Position numbers and translations under genes: made by a program. A stretch of 37,483 nucleotides of DNA from a virus. The stretch is from the IMG/VR virus record IMGVR_UViG_3300042914_001235, positions 1-37,483 of that record. One strand, written 5' to 3'. The notes below the pieces were generated by a model. The model had not been told where the DNA came from and did no database searches. It was given only the letters and a program-made list of their open reading frames with translations. Every line of letters begins with the position of its first letter. Position 1 is the first letter of the stretch. Shown one piece after another: positions 8,330 to 18,016 of the stretch.

Positions 8330-8604
8330 ACGCCTGCCCCTGGTCACTTGTAGCAATCCATTGGATTGACGCGTTCGACTCCGCAAACGGATGGATAAAC
8401 ACCAGGGACTATAAACCCAAAGCACAACACGTCGTCTCAGTTGGCTGGCTATGGCCCGACATTCTTGAAGGTTACTTGTCGGTAACATGCTCATGGTGCC
8501 CCGATGAGGAACCAGAAATGGACACCATCGGCATGGTCACCCACATCCCGCTCGGCATGGTGCAGAAAGTAGTGATGTTGGGCAACCCCCAATTTGATGC
8601 TTGA
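8326..8604 (+). CDS. conserved phage protein of unknown function
   Basis: 92 residues, overlapping the preceding gene by 4 bases. The pattern IHWIDAFDSANGWIN ... VVSVGWLWPDILEGYL ... GMVTHIPLGMVQKV is that of a small protein family I have seen in many tailed phages without known function. No metal-binding set or membrane helix is present. Its stop codon overlaps the -35 box of the next operon's promoter, so it ends the upstream transcription unit or is read through. Confidence 0.6.
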   Translation: MNACPWSLVAIHWIDAFDSANGWINTRDYKPKAQHVVSVGWLWPDILEGYLSVTCSWCPDEEPEMDTIGMVTHIPLGMVQKVVMLGNPQFDA

Positions 8605-8629
8605 CTTTGTTACACCCCTCCTGTACGGT
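8601..8629 (+). promoter_or_regulatory. sigma70-type promoter of the recombination operon
   Basis: TTGACT at 8601-8606, a 17-base spacer, and TACGGT at 8624-8629. The start site would fall near 8636, leaving a leader of about 30 bases with the binding site AGAGAAAGG before ATG 8668. It is the only recognised promoter on the plus strand between the left end and the 13.1-kb terminator. Confidence 0.65.
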
Positions 8630-8638
8630 GAACAGGAG
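8618..8638. promoter_or_regulatory. operator-like inverted repeat over the -10 box
   Basis: CTCCTGT (8618-8624) and ACAGGAG (8632-8638) form a perfect 7-base inverted repeat separated by 7 bases, and the -10 hexamer lies within it. A dimeric repressor binding here would block RNA polymerase. A candidate regulator is one of the phage's own helix-turn-helix proteins (12097 or 13363). The repeat could also form a hairpin in RNA, but most of it lies upstream of the expected start site. Confidence 0.5.
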
Positions 8639-8667
8639 AACCACACAACTTAGAGAAAGGTACCGTA

Positions 8668-14157: not shown

Positions 14158-14511
14158 CTATTTGCCTGCGTTCTCTCGGAACTTGGCAACCTCGTCCTCG
14201 GTTGGCTCTCGGTTCTCCGTCTTGTAAAACTCCTCCACAAAACGGTCTGCCTCGTCGTCGTTTCGCACCTCGTATTCGTCTACCGAGATGACATGGAAGT
14301 CATGCCCACCTTCGGTCAGTAGACGAGGCAACTCGTCGGGAGTTGTGTAGAAGAATACGAGTTCGTCTAGATGTCCGAGCGAGTCATACAACTCGTTCTC
14401 GTGTGGGTCGTACTCTCCGAAGGAGAAGAAGACTTGTCCTAGTGGTTGGTCTTCGTCGTGGTACTTGATGACGCACCACGCCCCCGTTGCGTTTGCTGGT
14501 ATCTGTTTCAT
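14158..14511 (-). CDS. acidic protein, unknown function
   Basis: 117 residues with many Asp and Glu (DELPRLLTEGG, RNDDEADRFVEEFYKTE). A beta-alpha start (GAWCVIKYHDEDQPLGQVFFS) is followed by a helical acidic end. The ribosome binding site AGAGAAAGG sits about 10 bases before the ATG. Acidic small early proteins often act as inhibitors or DNA mimics, but nothing proves that here. Confidence 0.55.
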   Translation of the reverse strand: MKQIPANATGAWCVIKYHDEDQPLGQVFFSFGEYDPHENELYDSLGHLDELVFFYTTPDELPRLLTEGGHDFHVISVDEYEVRNDDEADRFVEEFYKTENREPTEDEVAKFRENAGK

Positions 14512-14606
14512 TGCTGTTTCCTTTCTCTGTTGGTTGTTTGTGTTTCGGACTTGCGTCCTTGCGGGTGGGCAGGACTCGCACCTGCCTGTCTGCTAGCCAC
14601 CCCCAC
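14512..14606 (-). promoter_or_regulatory. structured leader of the 14158-14511 gene
   Basis: On the minus strand this 95-base gap has a stem-loop GCAGG/CCTGC with a 7-base loop (14569-14585), extended to GGCAGG/CCTGCC, then a short hairpin GGAC-GCAA-GTCC with a GNRA tetraloop (14547-14558), and the binding site AGAGAAAGG. I see no convincing -35/-10 pair. Part of it pairs further upstream in a tRNA-like way (see findings). Confidence 0.4.
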
Positions 14607-14942
14607 TCACTTCGCCTGCTCACGCCACCCGCCTTCGGCGAACTTGCGGTACTGCCTGACCATCTCTCGATACTGTCGTCGTTCCGCTGGGTCATCCATG
14701 TAGTCAGCCCTGTCGTCGTAGTCGCGAATCCAGTTGTTCACGACCTCATCGATGACCGCCTCGACTTCCTCCTCGGTCACCTCGACTTCGTACCAACTGC
14801 TGCGACCCCGCCGATGGCGGGTTCTAGTGCGTGCCAGTTTGTCGATGAACGACAAGCACTCTGGGGACCACTCGTTCACCTCGTCGCCGAAGTAGAACAT
14901 GATGTCACCGTATAGCAATTCCGTTATTTTGACTTTTGCCAT
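14607..14942 (-). CDS. acidic helical protein, unknown function
   Basis: 111 residues. It has an early YGDIMFYFGDEVNEWSPE segment and then helices rich in Glu, Arg and Asp (VTEEEVEAVIDEVVNNWIRD, then YREMVRQYRKF). No motif is recognised. It is transcribed from its own promoter (14991-15019) and preceded by a leader hairpin and the binding site AGAGAAAGG. Confidence 0.55.
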   Translation of the reverse strand: MAKVKITELLYGDIMFYFGDEVNEWSPECLSFIDKLARTRTRHRRGRSSWYEVEVTEEEVEAVIDEVVNNWIRDYDDRADYMDDPAERRQYREMVRQYRKFAEGGWREQAK

Positions 14943-14961: not shown

Positions 14962-14979
14962 GTCGGGTACCACCCCGAC
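14962..14979 (-). promoter_or_regulatory. leader hairpin with GTGGTA loop
   Basis: GTCGGG and CCCGAC pair around the loop GTGGTA, about 5 bases after the predicted transcript start and before the ribosome binding site. It is one of four such leader hairpins in the minus-strand cluster that share a GTGG loop but have different stems. Confidence 0.6.
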
Positions 14980-14990
14980 TCGTGGATACG

Positions 14991-15019
14991 AGCGTATCAC
15001 ATTTTTCGTCGCTTGTCAA
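14991..15019 (-). promoter_or_regulatory. sigma70-type promoter for the 14607-14942 gene
   Basis: On the minus strand, TTGACA (15019-15014), a 17-base spacer, TACGCT (14996-14991). The predicted start site is near 14985. Confidence 0.7.
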
Positions 15020-15041
15020 ATCGTAGATTTTTTTCGGTGCC

Positions 15042-15203
15042 TCATTTCTGCCTCGCTTGCCACACTTTCACGCCGAGATGAAAGAACGGGTAGACACACA
15101 CGCCCACCACGAACACCAACCCGACAGAACCCGACACCACTGCGACCGTGAGCATCACAACCCAAGTGTGCGACAATGCGTAACCCACTACGGGCGGTCT
15201 CAT
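15042..15203 (-). CDS. small membrane protein
   Basis: 53 residues from the ATG at 15203, with AGGAG 6-7 bases ahead. One long hydrophobic stretch (VVMLTVAVVSGSVGLVFVVG, then VCVYPFF) would form one or two membrane helices, with a short basic tail (KVWQARQK). It overlaps the 41-residue upstream frame by 4 bases. It is the last of a chain of five tiny coupled genes. The function is unknown, but early phage membrane proteins of this size often modify the host envelope. Confidence 0.55.
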   Translation of the reverse strand: MRPPVVGYALSHTWVVMLTVAVVSGSVGLVFVVGVCVYPFFHLGVKVWQARQK

Positions 15204-15325
15204 AGTTCTCTCCTTGTGACGAATCGCCACAGAGGGCGACCCTGCCCACGACACGCTCGCAACACGACCCACAGAGGGACGGCTACGGCTACCTCCACTA
15301 CGGCAAGCCAGAGAAGAGTTCTCAT
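15200..15325 (-). CDS. very small membrane-type protein
   Basis: 41 residues. ATG at 15325 overlaps the stop of the gene before it by 4 bases (ATGA) and its own stop overlaps the next ATG by 4. The sequence has a hydrophobic segment (LLWLAVVEVAVAVPLWVVL) and a basic end (RPLWRFVTRRE). The exact 4-base overlaps on both sides are the main reason to accept so short a gene. Confidence 0.45.
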   Translation of the reverse strand: MRTLLWLAVVEVAVAVPLWVVLRACRGQGRPLWRFVTRREL

Positions 15326-15498
15326 GCTTTGCGCCCTTTGGATAGTTGCTCGGTGCCGACATACCAGATACCGCCACCGCCTAACTTGTAGACATACGCC
15401 CCTGTCGGGTCGTCGTCGGCGTACCCGTAGAACTGTACGGGTAGTGAACCGTCAAGGGTGAGCCTGTCGCCCTCTTTGTAGCGTCGTTGCTTTGTCAT
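15322..15498 (-). CDS. small soluble protein, unknown function
   Basis: 58 residues, beta-rich (RYKEGDRLTLDG, VQFYGYADDDPTGAYVYKLG, GGIWYVGTEQL). It overlaps neighbours by 4 bases at each end. The aromatic and Gly content suggests a small barrel (SH3-like). No family is recognised. Confidence 0.5.
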   Translation of the reverse strand: MTKQRRYKEGDRLTLDGSLPVQFYGYADDDPTGAYVYKLGGGGIWYVGTEQLSKGRKA

Positions 15499-15641
15499 AC
15501 AGTCACCTCCTCGATAGCGGTATCGAGGTAGCCCTCATCGCTCCACAGTTGGGCAAGTTCTATTGCCTCGGTCTGTGTCAAGAGGTAGCCATTTACCTCT
15601 ACGCCACCTACCCAAACCGTGTACCGTTTTTCGTTGCTCAC
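15495..15641 (-). CDS. small protein, unknown function
   Basis: 48 residues from GTG at 15641, with GGAGG 7-8 bases ahead. It begins with strands (RYTVWVGGVEVNGYLL), then a helix (TEAIELAQLWSDEGY). Such short beta-alpha proteins with a W-x-GG-EV start occur in many actinophages. It overlaps both neighbours by 4 bases, suggesting translational coupling. Confidence 0.5.
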   Translation of the reverse strand: MSNEKRYTVWVGGVEVNGYLLTQTEAIELAQLWSDEGYLDTAIEEVTV

Positions 15642-15784
15642 TTGTAGACCTCCCTCTCTCGGATAAGTTCGTCGGACATCTCACGCAAGCGTCGGAACAC
15701 ATTCTGCGCGTCCTTGTTCATGATGTCTACCGCCAACCCGTCTAGCCAGTCAGTAGCGAGGTAGTCCCATAGTTCGGGGTTCAT
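15638..15784 (-). CDS. small helical protein, unknown function
   Basis: 48 residues from the ATG at 15784, overlapping neighbours by 4 bases at each end. An amphipathic helical sequence (WDYLATDWLDGLAVDIMNKD, then FRRLREMSDELIRERE). No motif is recognised. Confidence 0.5.
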   Translation of the reverse strand: MNPELWDYLATDWLDGLAVDIMNKDAQNVFRRLREMSDELIREREVYK

Positions 15785-15975
15785 GACAGTACCCACTTTC
15801 CGTTTATTCTCATGCCTCGCACCCCTCGCCGTTCCAGTTCGGCAAGTGTCGCAGACATTCGTTCTACGTTCTCGCTGAATACTCCTGCGTCCAGTTCTTC
15901 GTAGTGTGTGAATAGTTGTCCCGTGGTCATGGCGGACAGTTGGCGTACTGTCTGCTCGTACAGTTTGTAGTTCAC
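15781..15975 (-). CDS. small helical protein, unknown function
   Basis: 64 residues from GTG at 15975, two bases after the upstream stop and with GAGGGGG about 8 bases ahead; a farther upstream ATG would lie inside the previous gene. It is helical (LYEQTVRQLSAMTTGQLFTH, SENVERMSATLAELERRG) and ends in a small strand. It could be a dimer with a coiled-coil helix. Confidence 0.5.
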   Translation of the reverse strand: MNYKLYEQTVRQLSAMTTGQLFTHYEELDAGVFSENVERMSATLAELERRGVRGMRINGKWVLS

Positions 15976-15977
15976 GG

Positions 15978-16280
15978 TTACACCCCCTCGCAAGCCATGA
16001 GCGCATCGAGCCACTCGGTGACCTCTCGCGGACTGTTCGCGTACTCTTTCAGCGCGTCCCCGAGGTAGTCAAGTTCCATGTAGCCGAGGCTCTGCGGATT
16101 CAGAACGAACCGCGTACCGTAGTTCTCCTCACTCCAACCGATGAGGTCAAGGAAGAATAGAAACGGGTTGCTGTTCGTGTTACAGTTCAGCCCCCATTCG
16201 TAGCAGGCTTGCGCTTCGGGTGCGTATCTGTTCGGGCGTTCTAAGAACTCCCAAACATCGGTAATGGTTTCTGTTGTCAT
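15978..16280 (-). CDS. acidic protein, unknown function; first gene of a seven-gene mini-operon
   Basis: 100 residues, acidic and aromatic-rich (YEWGLNCNTNSN, LDLIGWSEENYGTRF). No motif is recognised. It has its own promoter and hairpin leader upstream, and is followed by six small genes (15975 down to 15042) almost without gaps. Confidence 0.55.
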   Translation of the reverse strand: MTTETITDVWEFLERPNRYAPEAQACYEWGLNCNTNSNPFLFFLDLIGWSEENYGTRFVLNPQSLGYMELDYLGDALKEYANSPREVTEWLDALMACEGV

Positions 16281-16287
16281 TGCGTTG

Positions 16288-16366
16288 CCTTTCTCTGTTG
16301 TTATTCGGTCACCGAAACCACTTCGGCGTTACCTTGTACCCTAGCGAGGTCGTGAGCCTCACGCAA
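16288..16366 (-). promoter_or_regulatory. promoter and repeated leader cassette of the 15978-16280 gene
   Basis: Minus strand: TTGCGT (16366-16361), 17 bases, TAGGGT (16343-16338). Near the start site follows a hairpin CCGAA-GTGGT-TTCGG (16326-16312), then a 24-base block (16311-16288) ending in AGAGAAAGG. The same 24 bases recur exactly at 16718-16695. A 15-base block across the -10 (16330-16344) also recurs there. Confidence 0.7.
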
Positions 16367-16393
16367 GCATTACCTGACTAGGGTCGCACTCTG

Positions 16394-16687
16394 CTATTCG
16401 TCCTCACCTCCGGAAATCACAACGCTCGGGAAGTACACAACGGTGCTACGCCCCATAGAGTCGCGCAAGATGTCCACCTCGGTAAGTTCCGTGATGAGGT
16501 CATAGTTCGACCGATACAGTCCCGAGCCGAGCAACATGAAACAGCGCGCCTCGTTATCGGTCACTATTCCGAGACACTGACGGTCGCCCATTCCGCGCCC
16601 CGAGTACGGGATAGCCTCGCCTGTTTCGTTGAGGTCAAGGTTCGCGCGTATCGCGTCCAACTCTGCCTCGCTTAGTTCGTATGTCAT
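16394..16687 (-). CDS. protein of unknown function
   Basis: 97 residues. It begins with a helix (LSEAELDAIRANLDLNETG) and has the segments GMGDRQCLGIVTDNEARCFML and SNYDLITELTEVDIL, so a mixed alpha-beta fold with two cysteines. No motif is recognised. It stands alone between two promoter-leader cassettes. Confidence 0.5.
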   Translation of the reverse strand: MTYELSEAELDAIRANLDLNETGEAIPYSGRGMGDRQCLGIVTDNEARCFMLLGSGLYRSNYDLITELTEVDILRDSMGRSTVVYFPSVVISGGEDE

Positions 16688-16694
16688 TGTCTAC

Positions 16695-16775
16695 CCTTTC
16701 TCTGTTGTTATTCGGTCAAGCCTCACCACGAGGCTCGCTACCTTGTACCCTAGTCGCCTATCGCTGACGAGTCAA
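16695..16775 (-). promoter_or_regulatory. promoter and repeated leader cassette of the 16394-16687 gene
   Basis: Minus strand: TTGACT (16775-16770), 17 bases, TAGGGT (16752-16747). It is followed by a hairpin AGCCTC-GTGGT-GAGGCT (16735-16719) about 5 bases after the expected start, and the 24-base block (16718-16695) with AGAGAAAGG. The hairpin stem differs from the 16312-16326 one while loop and flanks are kept. Confidence 0.72.
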
Positions 16776-16803
16776 GTCTCACACTTGGCTAGGGTCGTAT
16801 TCG

Positions 16804-17001
16804 TTATTCCTTGACGATTACCAACCCGTCACGGGTCAGACTGTCCCGAAACACTTCGCCAGCCTCACGCTTAGAGTAGCCCGAGAATGTCCGAGACTCG
16901 TAGAACGGTGACCCCCACGGGTTACCGTTCGGGTTCCTGTCCTTGACTAGGGCAGTCAGTATCCATGCCCCCGAGGGTACGGCTCGCTCGTAGGTAATCA
17001 T
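16804..17001 (-). CDS. small protein, unknown function
   Basis: 65 residues from ATG at 17001, overlapping the stop of the gene before it by 4 bases. It has a mixed beta-alpha sequence with aromatic and Asn/Pro-rich loop (ALVKDRNPNGNPWGSPFYES) and a helix near the end (KREAGEVFRDSL). No family is recognised. Confidence 0.55.
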   Translation of the reverse strand: MITYERAVPSGAWILTALVKDRNPNGNPWGSPFYESRTFSGYSKREAGEVFRDSLTRDGLVIVKE

Positions 17002-17210
17002 GAGATGTCCGCCCCACACTGTCCGCAAGGGTACGGGCACTTTTGCCATTCTTCGTCCCAAATAAAGATGCCTTCCCACGGGGCTATCGGGTGCTTAGCG
17101 TTGCCTTCGGGGTCAGTCTCGGGCAGTGTCACCCCACACTCGTAGCAGTATGCGTCCGCGTGATAGGTGAACCCTATCGGGCGGTATTTTGTGTAGTAGT
17201 CCGTTCTCAC
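16998..17210 (-). CDS. zinc-ribbon-like protein, unknown function
   Basis: 70 residues from GTG at 17210. Two cysteine pairs: YCYECGVTLPE near residue 22 and KCPYPCGQCGADIS at the end, a rubredoxin-like spacing that probably binds zinc. Small zinc proteins of this type in phages often touch RNA polymerase or nucleic acid, but that is not shown here. Confidence 0.6.
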   Translation of the reverse strand: MRTDYYTKYRPIGFTYHADAYCYECGVTLPETDPEGNAKHPIAPWEGIFIWDEEWQKCPYPCGQCGADIS

Positions 17211-17218
17211 TGTCTCTA

Positions 17219-17297
17219 CCCTTTCTCGGTAGTTATTCGGTCACGCCTCGGCGAGGCGTAGTACCTTGTGGACGGGTGAGGCTACGAACCCCACCCG
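17219..17297 (-). promoter_or_regulatory. diverged leader cassette of the 16998-17210 gene
   Basis: The distal part resembles the 16.3- and 16.7-kb cassettes: 17219-17242 matches the 24-base block with a few changes, and the TACCTTGT core (17262-17269) is kept. The -10 and -35 boxes are not. Instead CGGGTGAGG and CCCCACCCG (17273-17297) form a strong hairpin where the promoter would be. The small leader hairpin is ACGCCTC/GAGGCGT (17243-17259) with a GCC loop (minus strand) rather than GTGG. Confidence 0.5.
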
Positions 17298-17345
17298 CCC
17301 CGTATCGCCTAGCGATTCCGTTTAGCGGGTTTTCTTTCTTCCATG

Positions 17346-17762
17346 TCACGCACCTACCTTTGGTGTGTATTCGTACTGTCGTGTTGTTGCATTCCAACTG
17401 AAATCGTTCACGCCACTTGTGTTCCATGCCTGAGCATCATTTGCCCACATACGGAAGTGACCATTTGAACCATCCGCCATCTGATTGAACTGTGTTGCGT
17501 CAATCACGATGACTTCGTTTTCAATTTTTGCGCCAAAGGTGGTGAGCAATTCGGAAACGAATTTCTTTGTCTTGTCCAATCCACCCGCGTAGTAGAAACC
17601 GTGAAGTTCGCCATTGGGTGCTTTGATGATTGTTGGAACAACGGTGCGCGTGTGCTGTTTGTCTGAATAAAATGATGCACAAATTTTTCCCTTGACCAAT
17701 CGCACACCTTGAAAGATTTGTGCTGGTGTGAATGTGGTGTTGTCGTGAATGTAAGTGGTCAT
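17346..17762 (-). CDS. protein of unknown function, first of the minus-strand cluster
   Basis: 138 residues, first gene read leftward from the divergent region. Beta-rich N-terminal half (LVKGKICASFYSDKQHTRTV, GELHGFYYAGG), then helix (TKKFVSELLTTFGAKI), and an Asn-rich end (GSNGHFRMWANDAQAWN). I do not recognise the family. As the first gene behind the strongest-looking promoter here it is likely made early and abundantly. Confidence 0.55.
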   Translation of the reverse strand: MTTYIHDNTTFTPAQIFQGVRLVKGKICASFYSDKQHTRTVVPTIIKAPNGELHGFYYAGGLDKTKKFVSELLTTFGAKIENEVIVIDATQFNQMADGSNGHFRMWANDAQAWNTSGVNDFSWNATTRQYEYTPKVGA

Positions 17763-17780
17763 TCTCTGTTCCTTTCTCTC

Positions 17781-17840
17781 AGGGATTGAGCCACCTCAAC
17801 CCTCTAAGAAGAGCCTAGCGTACCCATCGCCACTTGTCAA
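17781..17840 (-). promoter_or_regulatory. main leftward promoter with GTGG-loop leader hairpin
   Basis: Minus strand: TTGACA (17840-17835), 17 bases, TAGGCT (17817-17812), which is close to consensus. The predicted start, near 17805, is followed at once by a hairpin AGGGTTGAG-GTGG-CTCAATCCCT (17803-17781, one bulged base), then AGAGAAAGGA and the ATG. The -35 lies inside a short palindrome ACTTG-A-CAAGT. Confidence 0.72.
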
Positions 17841-17961
17841 GTTTTTCCACTGTGACTCTTGACACACCAACGAATGTCATCAGACCGCAACAAACCTGTC
17901 AGGCACACCTAACAAACCCCCCACACTTGTAAGGTCACCCTAACAAGGCGGACTTCGCCAG

Positions 17962-17996
17962 AAGTTACCGACGGGTAACTTACTCGCGGGTAACTT
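17962..17996. repeat. inverted and direct repeats of GGTAACTT
   Basis: AAGTTACC (17962-17969), GGTAACTT (17974-17981) and GGTAACTT (17989-17996): one inverted pair and one direct pair, the latter 15 bases apart. Within C-rich flanking DNA this looks like a protein-binding array. Confidence 0.6.
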
Positions 17997-18016
17997 GTGG
18001 GGGGTGGGGGGTCGTG

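Follow-up and report, generated by a model that had tools for sequence, protein, structure and literature searches.

A covarying RNA element before phage gene starts, a candidate intercistronic cleavage site that changes places with hammerhead ribozymes and promoters

The minus-strand gene cluster of a virus recorded in IMG/VR (IMGVR_UViG_3300042914_001235, positions 1 to 37,483; this whole stretch of 37,483 nucleotides (nt) is hereafter the window) carries copies of a three-helix RNA element just ahead of its genes. In relatives the element covaries, and before orthologous genes its place is taken by type II hammerhead ribozymes or by promoters. It is a previously uncatalogued, strongly covarying RNA. 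This suggests a form of operon punctuation, in which interchangeable means give messages a 5'-terminal hairpin and the element would probably be a site of intercistronic cutting. We also incline slightly towards considering it an undescribed class of intercistronic cleavage elements (a self-cleaving ribozyme of a new kind, or else a mimic of the tRNA top half read by host RNase Z/P), interchangeable with hammerheads and giving 5'-terminal hairpins. Among cultured phages, those of Streptomyces come closest, with 47% identity in the capsid protein; a search for the host through TerL in genome contigs returned nothing usable.

From 5' to 3', the element comprises P1, an optional P2, P3, the string R-C-N-A (R, purine; N, any base) and the hairpin P4, followed by the Shine-Dalgarno sequence (SD) and the start codon. 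In the window, copies begin at 17300, 16795 and 16384, with a divergent one at 14602. The copies at 17300 and 14602 had been missed by the initial annotation, which reported four leader hairpins sharing a GTGG(T) loop. Two of these, at 16735 and 16326, are P4 of copies 2 and 3, i.e., the 3' helix of the element. In these two copies P1 has 7 base pairs (bp), P2 is a small hairpin, and P3 has 5 bp and a loop of 7 nt; P3 abuts the 3' strand of P1 and is followed by ACAA, P4 with a GTGGT loop, GAA, an A-rich stretch, the SD and the start. The copies and their downstream parts are as follows.

17270 to 17300, minus strand: copy 1, without P2; P1 GGGCGGG/CCCGTCC, P3 TGGGG-TTCGTAG-CCTCA; 48.5 bits, z -4.9
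17236 to 17269, minus strand: downstream of copy 1, ACAA, P4 (GCC loop) and GAA, before gene 16998-17210
16747 to 16795, minus strand: copy 2; P1 ACCCTAG/CTAGGGT, P2 CAAG/CTTG, P3 TCGTC-AGCGATA-GGCGA; 95.4 bits, z -3.0
16711 to 16746, minus strand: downstream of copy 2, ACAA, P4 (GTGGT loop, 16735-16719) and GAA, before gene 16394-16687
16338 to 16384, minus strand: copy 3; P1 ACCCTAG/CTAGGGT, P3 (U)GAGG-CTCACGA-CCTC(G); 76.5 bits, z -3.1
16304 to 16337, minus strand: downstream of copy 3, ACAA, P4 (GTGGT loop, 16326-16312) and GAA, before gene 15978-16280
14563 to 14602, minus strand: copy 4, divergent, 11 bp; P1 GGGTGG/CCACCC, CTAGCAGACAG, P3 GCAGG-TGCGAGT-CCTGC
14544 to 14562, minus strand: downstream of copy 4, GCAA, P4 GGAC-GCAA-GTCC and GAA, before gene 14158-14511

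The predicted minimum-energy fold of copy 2 (16.75 kb) is the proposed model itself; for copy 3 (16.34 kb), P1 and P4 are predicted, with the P2/P3 part paired differently. Copy 4 received no score from the covariance model R1 and was assigned by its likeness to members at L003, L067 and L075 (L numbers designate loci in relatives); its homologues at L067 and L038 reach 25 bits. The divergent copies have in common a CTAGCAG string between P1 and P3, replacing the P2 hairpin (L003 6661, L067 4528, L075 3056 and window 14597-14586).

Relatives were collected through the terminase (80 viral contigs), and more were added with an alignment search. Because MAFFT misaligned short members, the covariance model was built from 13 full-length elements. 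In this alignment, 20 of the 27 base pairs are changed on both sides, including 7/7 in P1 and 5/5 in P3. Paired cells amount to 92.2%, against 66.6% after shuffling, and covariation scores 0.690, compared with 0.219 for shuffled columns and 0.08-0.16 with the pairing slid. P2 aligned poorly (65% paired). The search in relatives foreseen in the initial annotation thus recovered compensatory stem changes. Furthermore, model R1, run over 1.3 Mb with no gene context used, gave 30 matches, 29 of which sit 13-33 nt before an open reading frame bearing an SD.

Overall, the element was found in ~25 related viral contigs. A structural search for distant members, in which neither RCNA nor the loop C was demanded, recovered very different helices at L012, L030, L031, L033 (several copies), L046, L047, L053, L054, L056, L058, L061 and L101, and the elements at L025 and L039 were recovered by the covariance model and by a search constrained to RCNA. 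Scanning viral contigs with a DNA pattern gave mostly chance matches and one real new contig, L101. After two misfits were dropped, the parsed set held 44 members; these were picked for their position in contigs related by terminase and for their resemblance, so that the tallies are not those of a blind sample. The P1/P3 stack measures 12 bp in 28/44 members and 11 bp in 14/44, and flanking bases never lengthen P1. The P3 loop has 6-7 nt, mostly 7, with C at position 3 and a purine at position 4 (30/30 each). After the stack, R-C-N-A is found in 33 of 34 distinct forms, where N can be any base except C; the sole exception is the window copy at 14.56 kb, which was parsed three bases too long and really reads GCAA. 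No family in Rfam 15 matched the element. Among the relatives there are also minimal members, in which P4 is just GGC-GAAA/GAGA-GCC and the loop has 6 nt (L020 7293, L021 8031 and 7449, L034 7426).

The place of the element before orthologous genes is not always occupied by the element. Type II hammerhead ribozymes with intact cores lie directly before start codons at 19 loci in relatives (L020, L031, L038, L067, L253, L255, L256, L262, L263, L275, L276, L281, L287, L307, L315, L316, L325, L329 and L330), and their stem II is altered on both sides (GCCC/GGGC, GACC/GGTC, AGGC/GCCT, AAGC/GCTT, GTCC/GGAC). Standard annotation misses them because they fall below the Rfam cut-off or are unmatched: the hammerheads at L020, L031, L038 and L067 score 26-36 bits (best 36.4) against a cut-off of 37, and others, searched in a 55-kb batch, had no Rfam match at E<=1. 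In the window, no sequence combined CUGANGA, GAA, A15.1-U16.1, H17 and three stems.

The MTRKDY gene is preceded by a hammerhead at L020, L038, L067, L253, L255, L256 and L263, and by a promoter at L003, L004, L075 and L079. All three solutions occur before the LRHVS gene: the element at L251, L253, L254, L259, L267-L269, L277, L312 and L313, a hammerhead at L275, L281, L287, L315, L316, L325 and L329, and a promoter at L018. Window gene 15978-16280 has the element, whereas a hammerhead stands in that place before its orthologue at L330. Maps of the clusters show a promoter, then elements or hammerheads in most gaps of ~77-117 nt, those of ~95-117 nt mostly containing the element, and nothing between translationally coupled genes (-4). 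Phage hammerheads flanking single genes were reported in 2011, with function unclear, and the 5' end of a halovirus transcript maps <=3 nt from a hammerhead (PMC3088659). This interchange before orthologues points to the making of 5' ends, and not mainly to a regulator that binds the loop, as had been proposed initially; a loop-binding factor may nonetheless exist.

All four GTGG-loop hairpins reported by the initial annotation are present on the minus strand: GTCGGG-GTGGTA-CCCGAC (14979-14962, before gene 14942), CCGAA-GTGGT-TTCGG (16326-16312, before gene 16280), AGCCTC-GTGGT-GAGGCT (16735-16719, before gene 16687) and AGGGTTGAG-GTGG-CTCAATCCCT (17803-17781, before gene 17762). They occur in 4 of the 6 minus-strand cluster leaders that bear GAGAAAGG, against an average of 0.01 in shuffled leaders, which never reached four (0/2000). 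Over the whole minus strand of the window there are five GTGG-loop hairpins with a stem of >=5 bp, four of them before GAGAAAGG, and shuffles average 0.7. The remaining two leaders, left out of the initial account, have no GTGG loop (GCC loop at 17.25 kb, GCAA loop at 14.56 kb). The shared sequence said to follow each hairpin is there, as GAGAAAGG lies a few to ~18 nt downstream of all four. AGAGAAAGG is an ordinary extended SD, AGAAAGG being complementary to CCUUUCU at the 16S rRNA 3' end of Actinobacteria and Firmicutes.

The four hairpins are two different things, namely promoter hairpins and the last helix of a larger RNA, so they do not form the single family first described, and the larger element also occurs without GTGG. 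Placement at predicted transcription starts holds for 14942 and 17762, which have clear promoters, and not for 16687 and 16280, where the hairpin is the end helix of the intercistronic element. Likewise, four unrelated stems under one loop are not covariation by themselves, and it is the relatives that supply it. Among 38 distinct hairpins downstream of the element in these relatives and the window, 18 have TGGT in the loop; the share is 2.6% among 4340 control hairpins from the same loci. The string recurs in promoter hairpins (GTGGTA, GTGGT, TGGTC, CTGGTAA, TATGGTG); therefore, the shared loop is real in near relatives. It is also found with unrelated stems at L033 and L039. The (G/A)UGGU loop is thus enriched, not universal, and it is a secondary feature, because distant members (L030, L031, L046, L047, L053, L061) do not have it.

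The promoter leaders of the window share the consensus TTGACA-N17-TANNNT and are composed as follows.

17835 to 17840, minus strand: -35 TTGACA of the promoter of gene 17346-17762; -10 TAGGCT at 17817-17812, spacer 17
17781 to 17803, minus strand: 5'-terminal hairpin AGGGTTGAG-GTGG-CTCAATCCCT, starting at ~+2/+3; z -3.6
17771 to 17779, minus strand: AGAGAAAGG, extended SD, with the same before other leaders
15014 to 15019, minus strand: -35 TTGACA of the promoter of gene 14607-14942; -10 TACGCT at 14996-14991, spacer 17
14962 to 14979, minus strand: 5'-proximal hairpin GTCGGG-GTGGTA-CCCGAC, starting at ~+5

The same layout is found in several relatives, with the hairpin beginning at ~+1 to +5. 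Of the promoter leaders at L028 and L018, which replace the element before orthologues, not both have a clear +1 hairpin. At 16687 and 16280, the promoter-like hexamers TTGACT/TTGCGT-N17-TAGGGT lie inside helices of the larger RNA fold.

We infer that the cluster is transcribed from few promoters and that the long RNA would be divided into shorter messages. Most gene starts without translational coupling would then carry an element making a 5' end with a frontal hairpin, from which a few bases lead to a strong SD. At promoters the hairpin begins at ~+1 to +5; between genes, an element with coaxial P1/P3 stack would do the same job. The putative cut would fall at or beside R↓C-N-A and leave P4 at the 5' end, in parallel with hammerhead cleavage in relatives, which would leave stem I as a 5'-end hairpin. 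Such a frontal hairpin may protect the message. The cutter we favour is host tRNA 3'-end processing, i.e., RNase Z, with RNase P as a possible partner, since the element resembles the upper half of a tRNA and never has CC after the purine. The stack has a set length of 11-12 bp, with conserved letters at either end and free sequence between them, and thus has the look of a substrate for an enzyme that measures the tRNA top half. No phage-encoded RNA-processing enzyme was recognised among the proteins scanned.

Several observations weigh against cutting by this route or against the strength of the comparison. P4 starts 1-4 nt past the supposed cut, close enough that it may impede RNase Z; the loop does not preserve the U54-A58 pair found in true T-loops; some P1/P3 stacks have 11 bp, and copy 1 in the window is without P2; and promoter-like hexamers (TTGAC-N17-TAGGGT) lie inside some copies. 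The relatives are metagenomic contigs, copies of the same lineage are not independent, and structure-based searching inflates the pairing counts, so that a figure of 98.8% paired is partly so by construction, because structure-guided searches favour paired forms.

Under cleavage, the element could be a mimic of the tRNA top half on which RNase Z, RNase P or both enzymes of the host act, the same cutter as favoured above, which we regard as a serious candidate, if short of an even chance. The 7+5 bp stack, the 7-nt loop, and the C and R at the positions of C56 and R57 speak for it, as does the unpaired R followed by C-N-A, where N is never C, as expected if CC inhibits RNase Z. Indeed, RNase Z cuts just after the unpaired discriminator, tolerating any base there, and a following CC inhibits it; the Bacillus subtilis enzyme contacts the T-arm and acceptor stem only (PMC7479834). 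RNase P measures the T-arm/acceptor stack, and non-tRNA RNAs with such a stack are substrates (PMC4919913). Against this, A58 and the D-loop are not kept, the hairpin is close behind the cut, and there are 11-bp members; ARAGORN scored no tRNA in the window or in 60 loci, and no cloverleaf, anticodon arm or NCCA was found. The alternative form of cleavage and main rival, a new class of self-cleaving ribozyme cut at or near R↓CNA and equivalent to the hammerheads it replaces, seems to us rather doubtful. In its favour, the element occupies the places of type II hammerheads before orthologous genes, the kind of gene-neighbour logic that led to pistol, hatchet and twister-sister (PMC10085705), and it has no Rfam match. 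However, it has few unpaired bases that never vary (C and R in the loop; R-C-A), P2 is dispensable, and one active site would be hard to form because these bases lie at opposite ends of the 11-12 bp stack.

The element might also be uncut and serve as a stable leader, either as a barrier to exonucleases or to ribosomes arriving from upstream or as the landing site of a protein that binds the loop, in line with the initial view. The enrichment of the (A/G)UGGU loop in P4-like hairpins and its presence at promoter hairpins agree with this, but many members have other loops (GCC, GCAA, AAGG and others) while P1/P3 and RCNA persist, and the fact that hammerheads or promoters can stand in for the element suggests a role in creating 5' ends; we therefore judge an uncut leader unlikely. 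Finally, the inverted repeats could be DNA sites, a promoter TTGACT-N17-TAGGGT with an overlapping operator, and P4 a mere +1 hairpin. Hexamers resembling -35 and -10 with a spacing of 17 do occur in copy 2 and in ACCCTAG relatives, and L024 8379 reads TTGCAT-N17-TACGGT, but on inspection there are none in the GGACGGG, GACGCTA, GCCCG and GCCCCCG types or in window copies 1 and 4. The members without hexamers keep the fold by the compensatory changes in P1 and P3 given above. DNA sites thus fit the ACCCTAG lineage and one L024 copy only, and one lineage explains the hexamers, which makes this reading very improbable.

Two known ribozymes were considered and rejected. Twister-sister was prompted by CCCGCAAGG and GGTGCGAGTCC in copy 4; the scissile strand is missing and the order of the parts differs (PMC5660989), as copy 4 has no GCUCAU strand opposite GCAA and no Rfam match at E<=5. 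A hepatitis delta virus (HDV)-like ribozyme was considered for the CAA-P4-GAA resemblance; P2 is a local hairpin, no second strand follows P4 by eye, and no Rfam match was obtained.

Other repeats lie near the promoters. Visual inspection shows an imperfect inverted repeat like TGTGAC-N4/5-GTCACA immediately ahead of the -35 in the first cluster promoter (window 17851-17866, minus strand), with similar ones ahead of the corresponding promoters at L003, L004, L067, L075 and L079. It is perhaps an activator or repressor site; in the window, the plain TGTGAC..GTCACA pattern is no more frequent than expected by chance. Repeated GTTACC/GGTAAC palindromic strings, possibly operator or replication sites, lie in the non-coding region that separates the divergent clusters (17962-17997). 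On the plus strand, a promoter-like pair TTGACT...TACGGT (8601-8639) precedes the RecE-like exonuclease gene (8668), and the inverted repeat CTCCTGT-ACGGTGA-ACAGGAG overlaps its -10, in the manner of an operator and not of a leader hairpin.

The relevance of these data is that, across many related phages, the same gene can have a hammerhead, an unrelated RNA fold or a promoter in front of it. The leader kinds have in common, in most cases, a message that begins with a hairpin, and this result is apparently what is conserved, so that the role can be tested directly. Absent from Rfam, the new fold would be a candidate ribozyme class or a natural processing signal resembling a tRNA minihelix.

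Among known systems, the phi10 leader of T7 has a stabilising 5'-terminal hairpin on a phage message, at ~+1 before a strong SD; in the window phage, differently, the same outcome is seemingly reached also through intercistronic elements. The start-associated sequences (SAS/ESAS) of cluster K mycobacteriophages are likewise repeats tied to some phage gene starts, some with inverted repeats (PMC3203893). SAS is one conserved 13-mer, whereas in the element the sequence varies and the structure is kept, and the likeness drawn initially found no match beyond chance: the window holds 6 matches to 5'-GGGATAGGAGCCC with 3 mismatches, against 6.4 expected. With twister-sister (PMC5660989), copy 4 shares GCAAG and a UGC(A/G)AGU-like loop, strings that are not conserved in the family; the element has no GCUC↓AU strand and another order of parts. 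Closer are tRNA punctuation and the tRNA-like substrates of RNase P/Z (mitochondrial tRNAs, MALAT1-type RNAs; PMC4919913), as the element too places between messages an acceptor/T-arm-like stack whose 3' edge bears an unpaired purine followed by C, although it has no anticodon arm or CCA, keeps the T-loop in part and sometimes lacks P2, and its processing is putative. Type II hammerheads (RF02276; PMC3088659) differ in their CUGAUGA/GAA core and fold, neither shared by the element, and are absent from the window. Like the element, however, they are intergenic and lie just before the SD, and their cleavage would leave a 5'-end hairpin; they make discrete 5' ends, and in relatives they stand before orthologous genes instead of the element.

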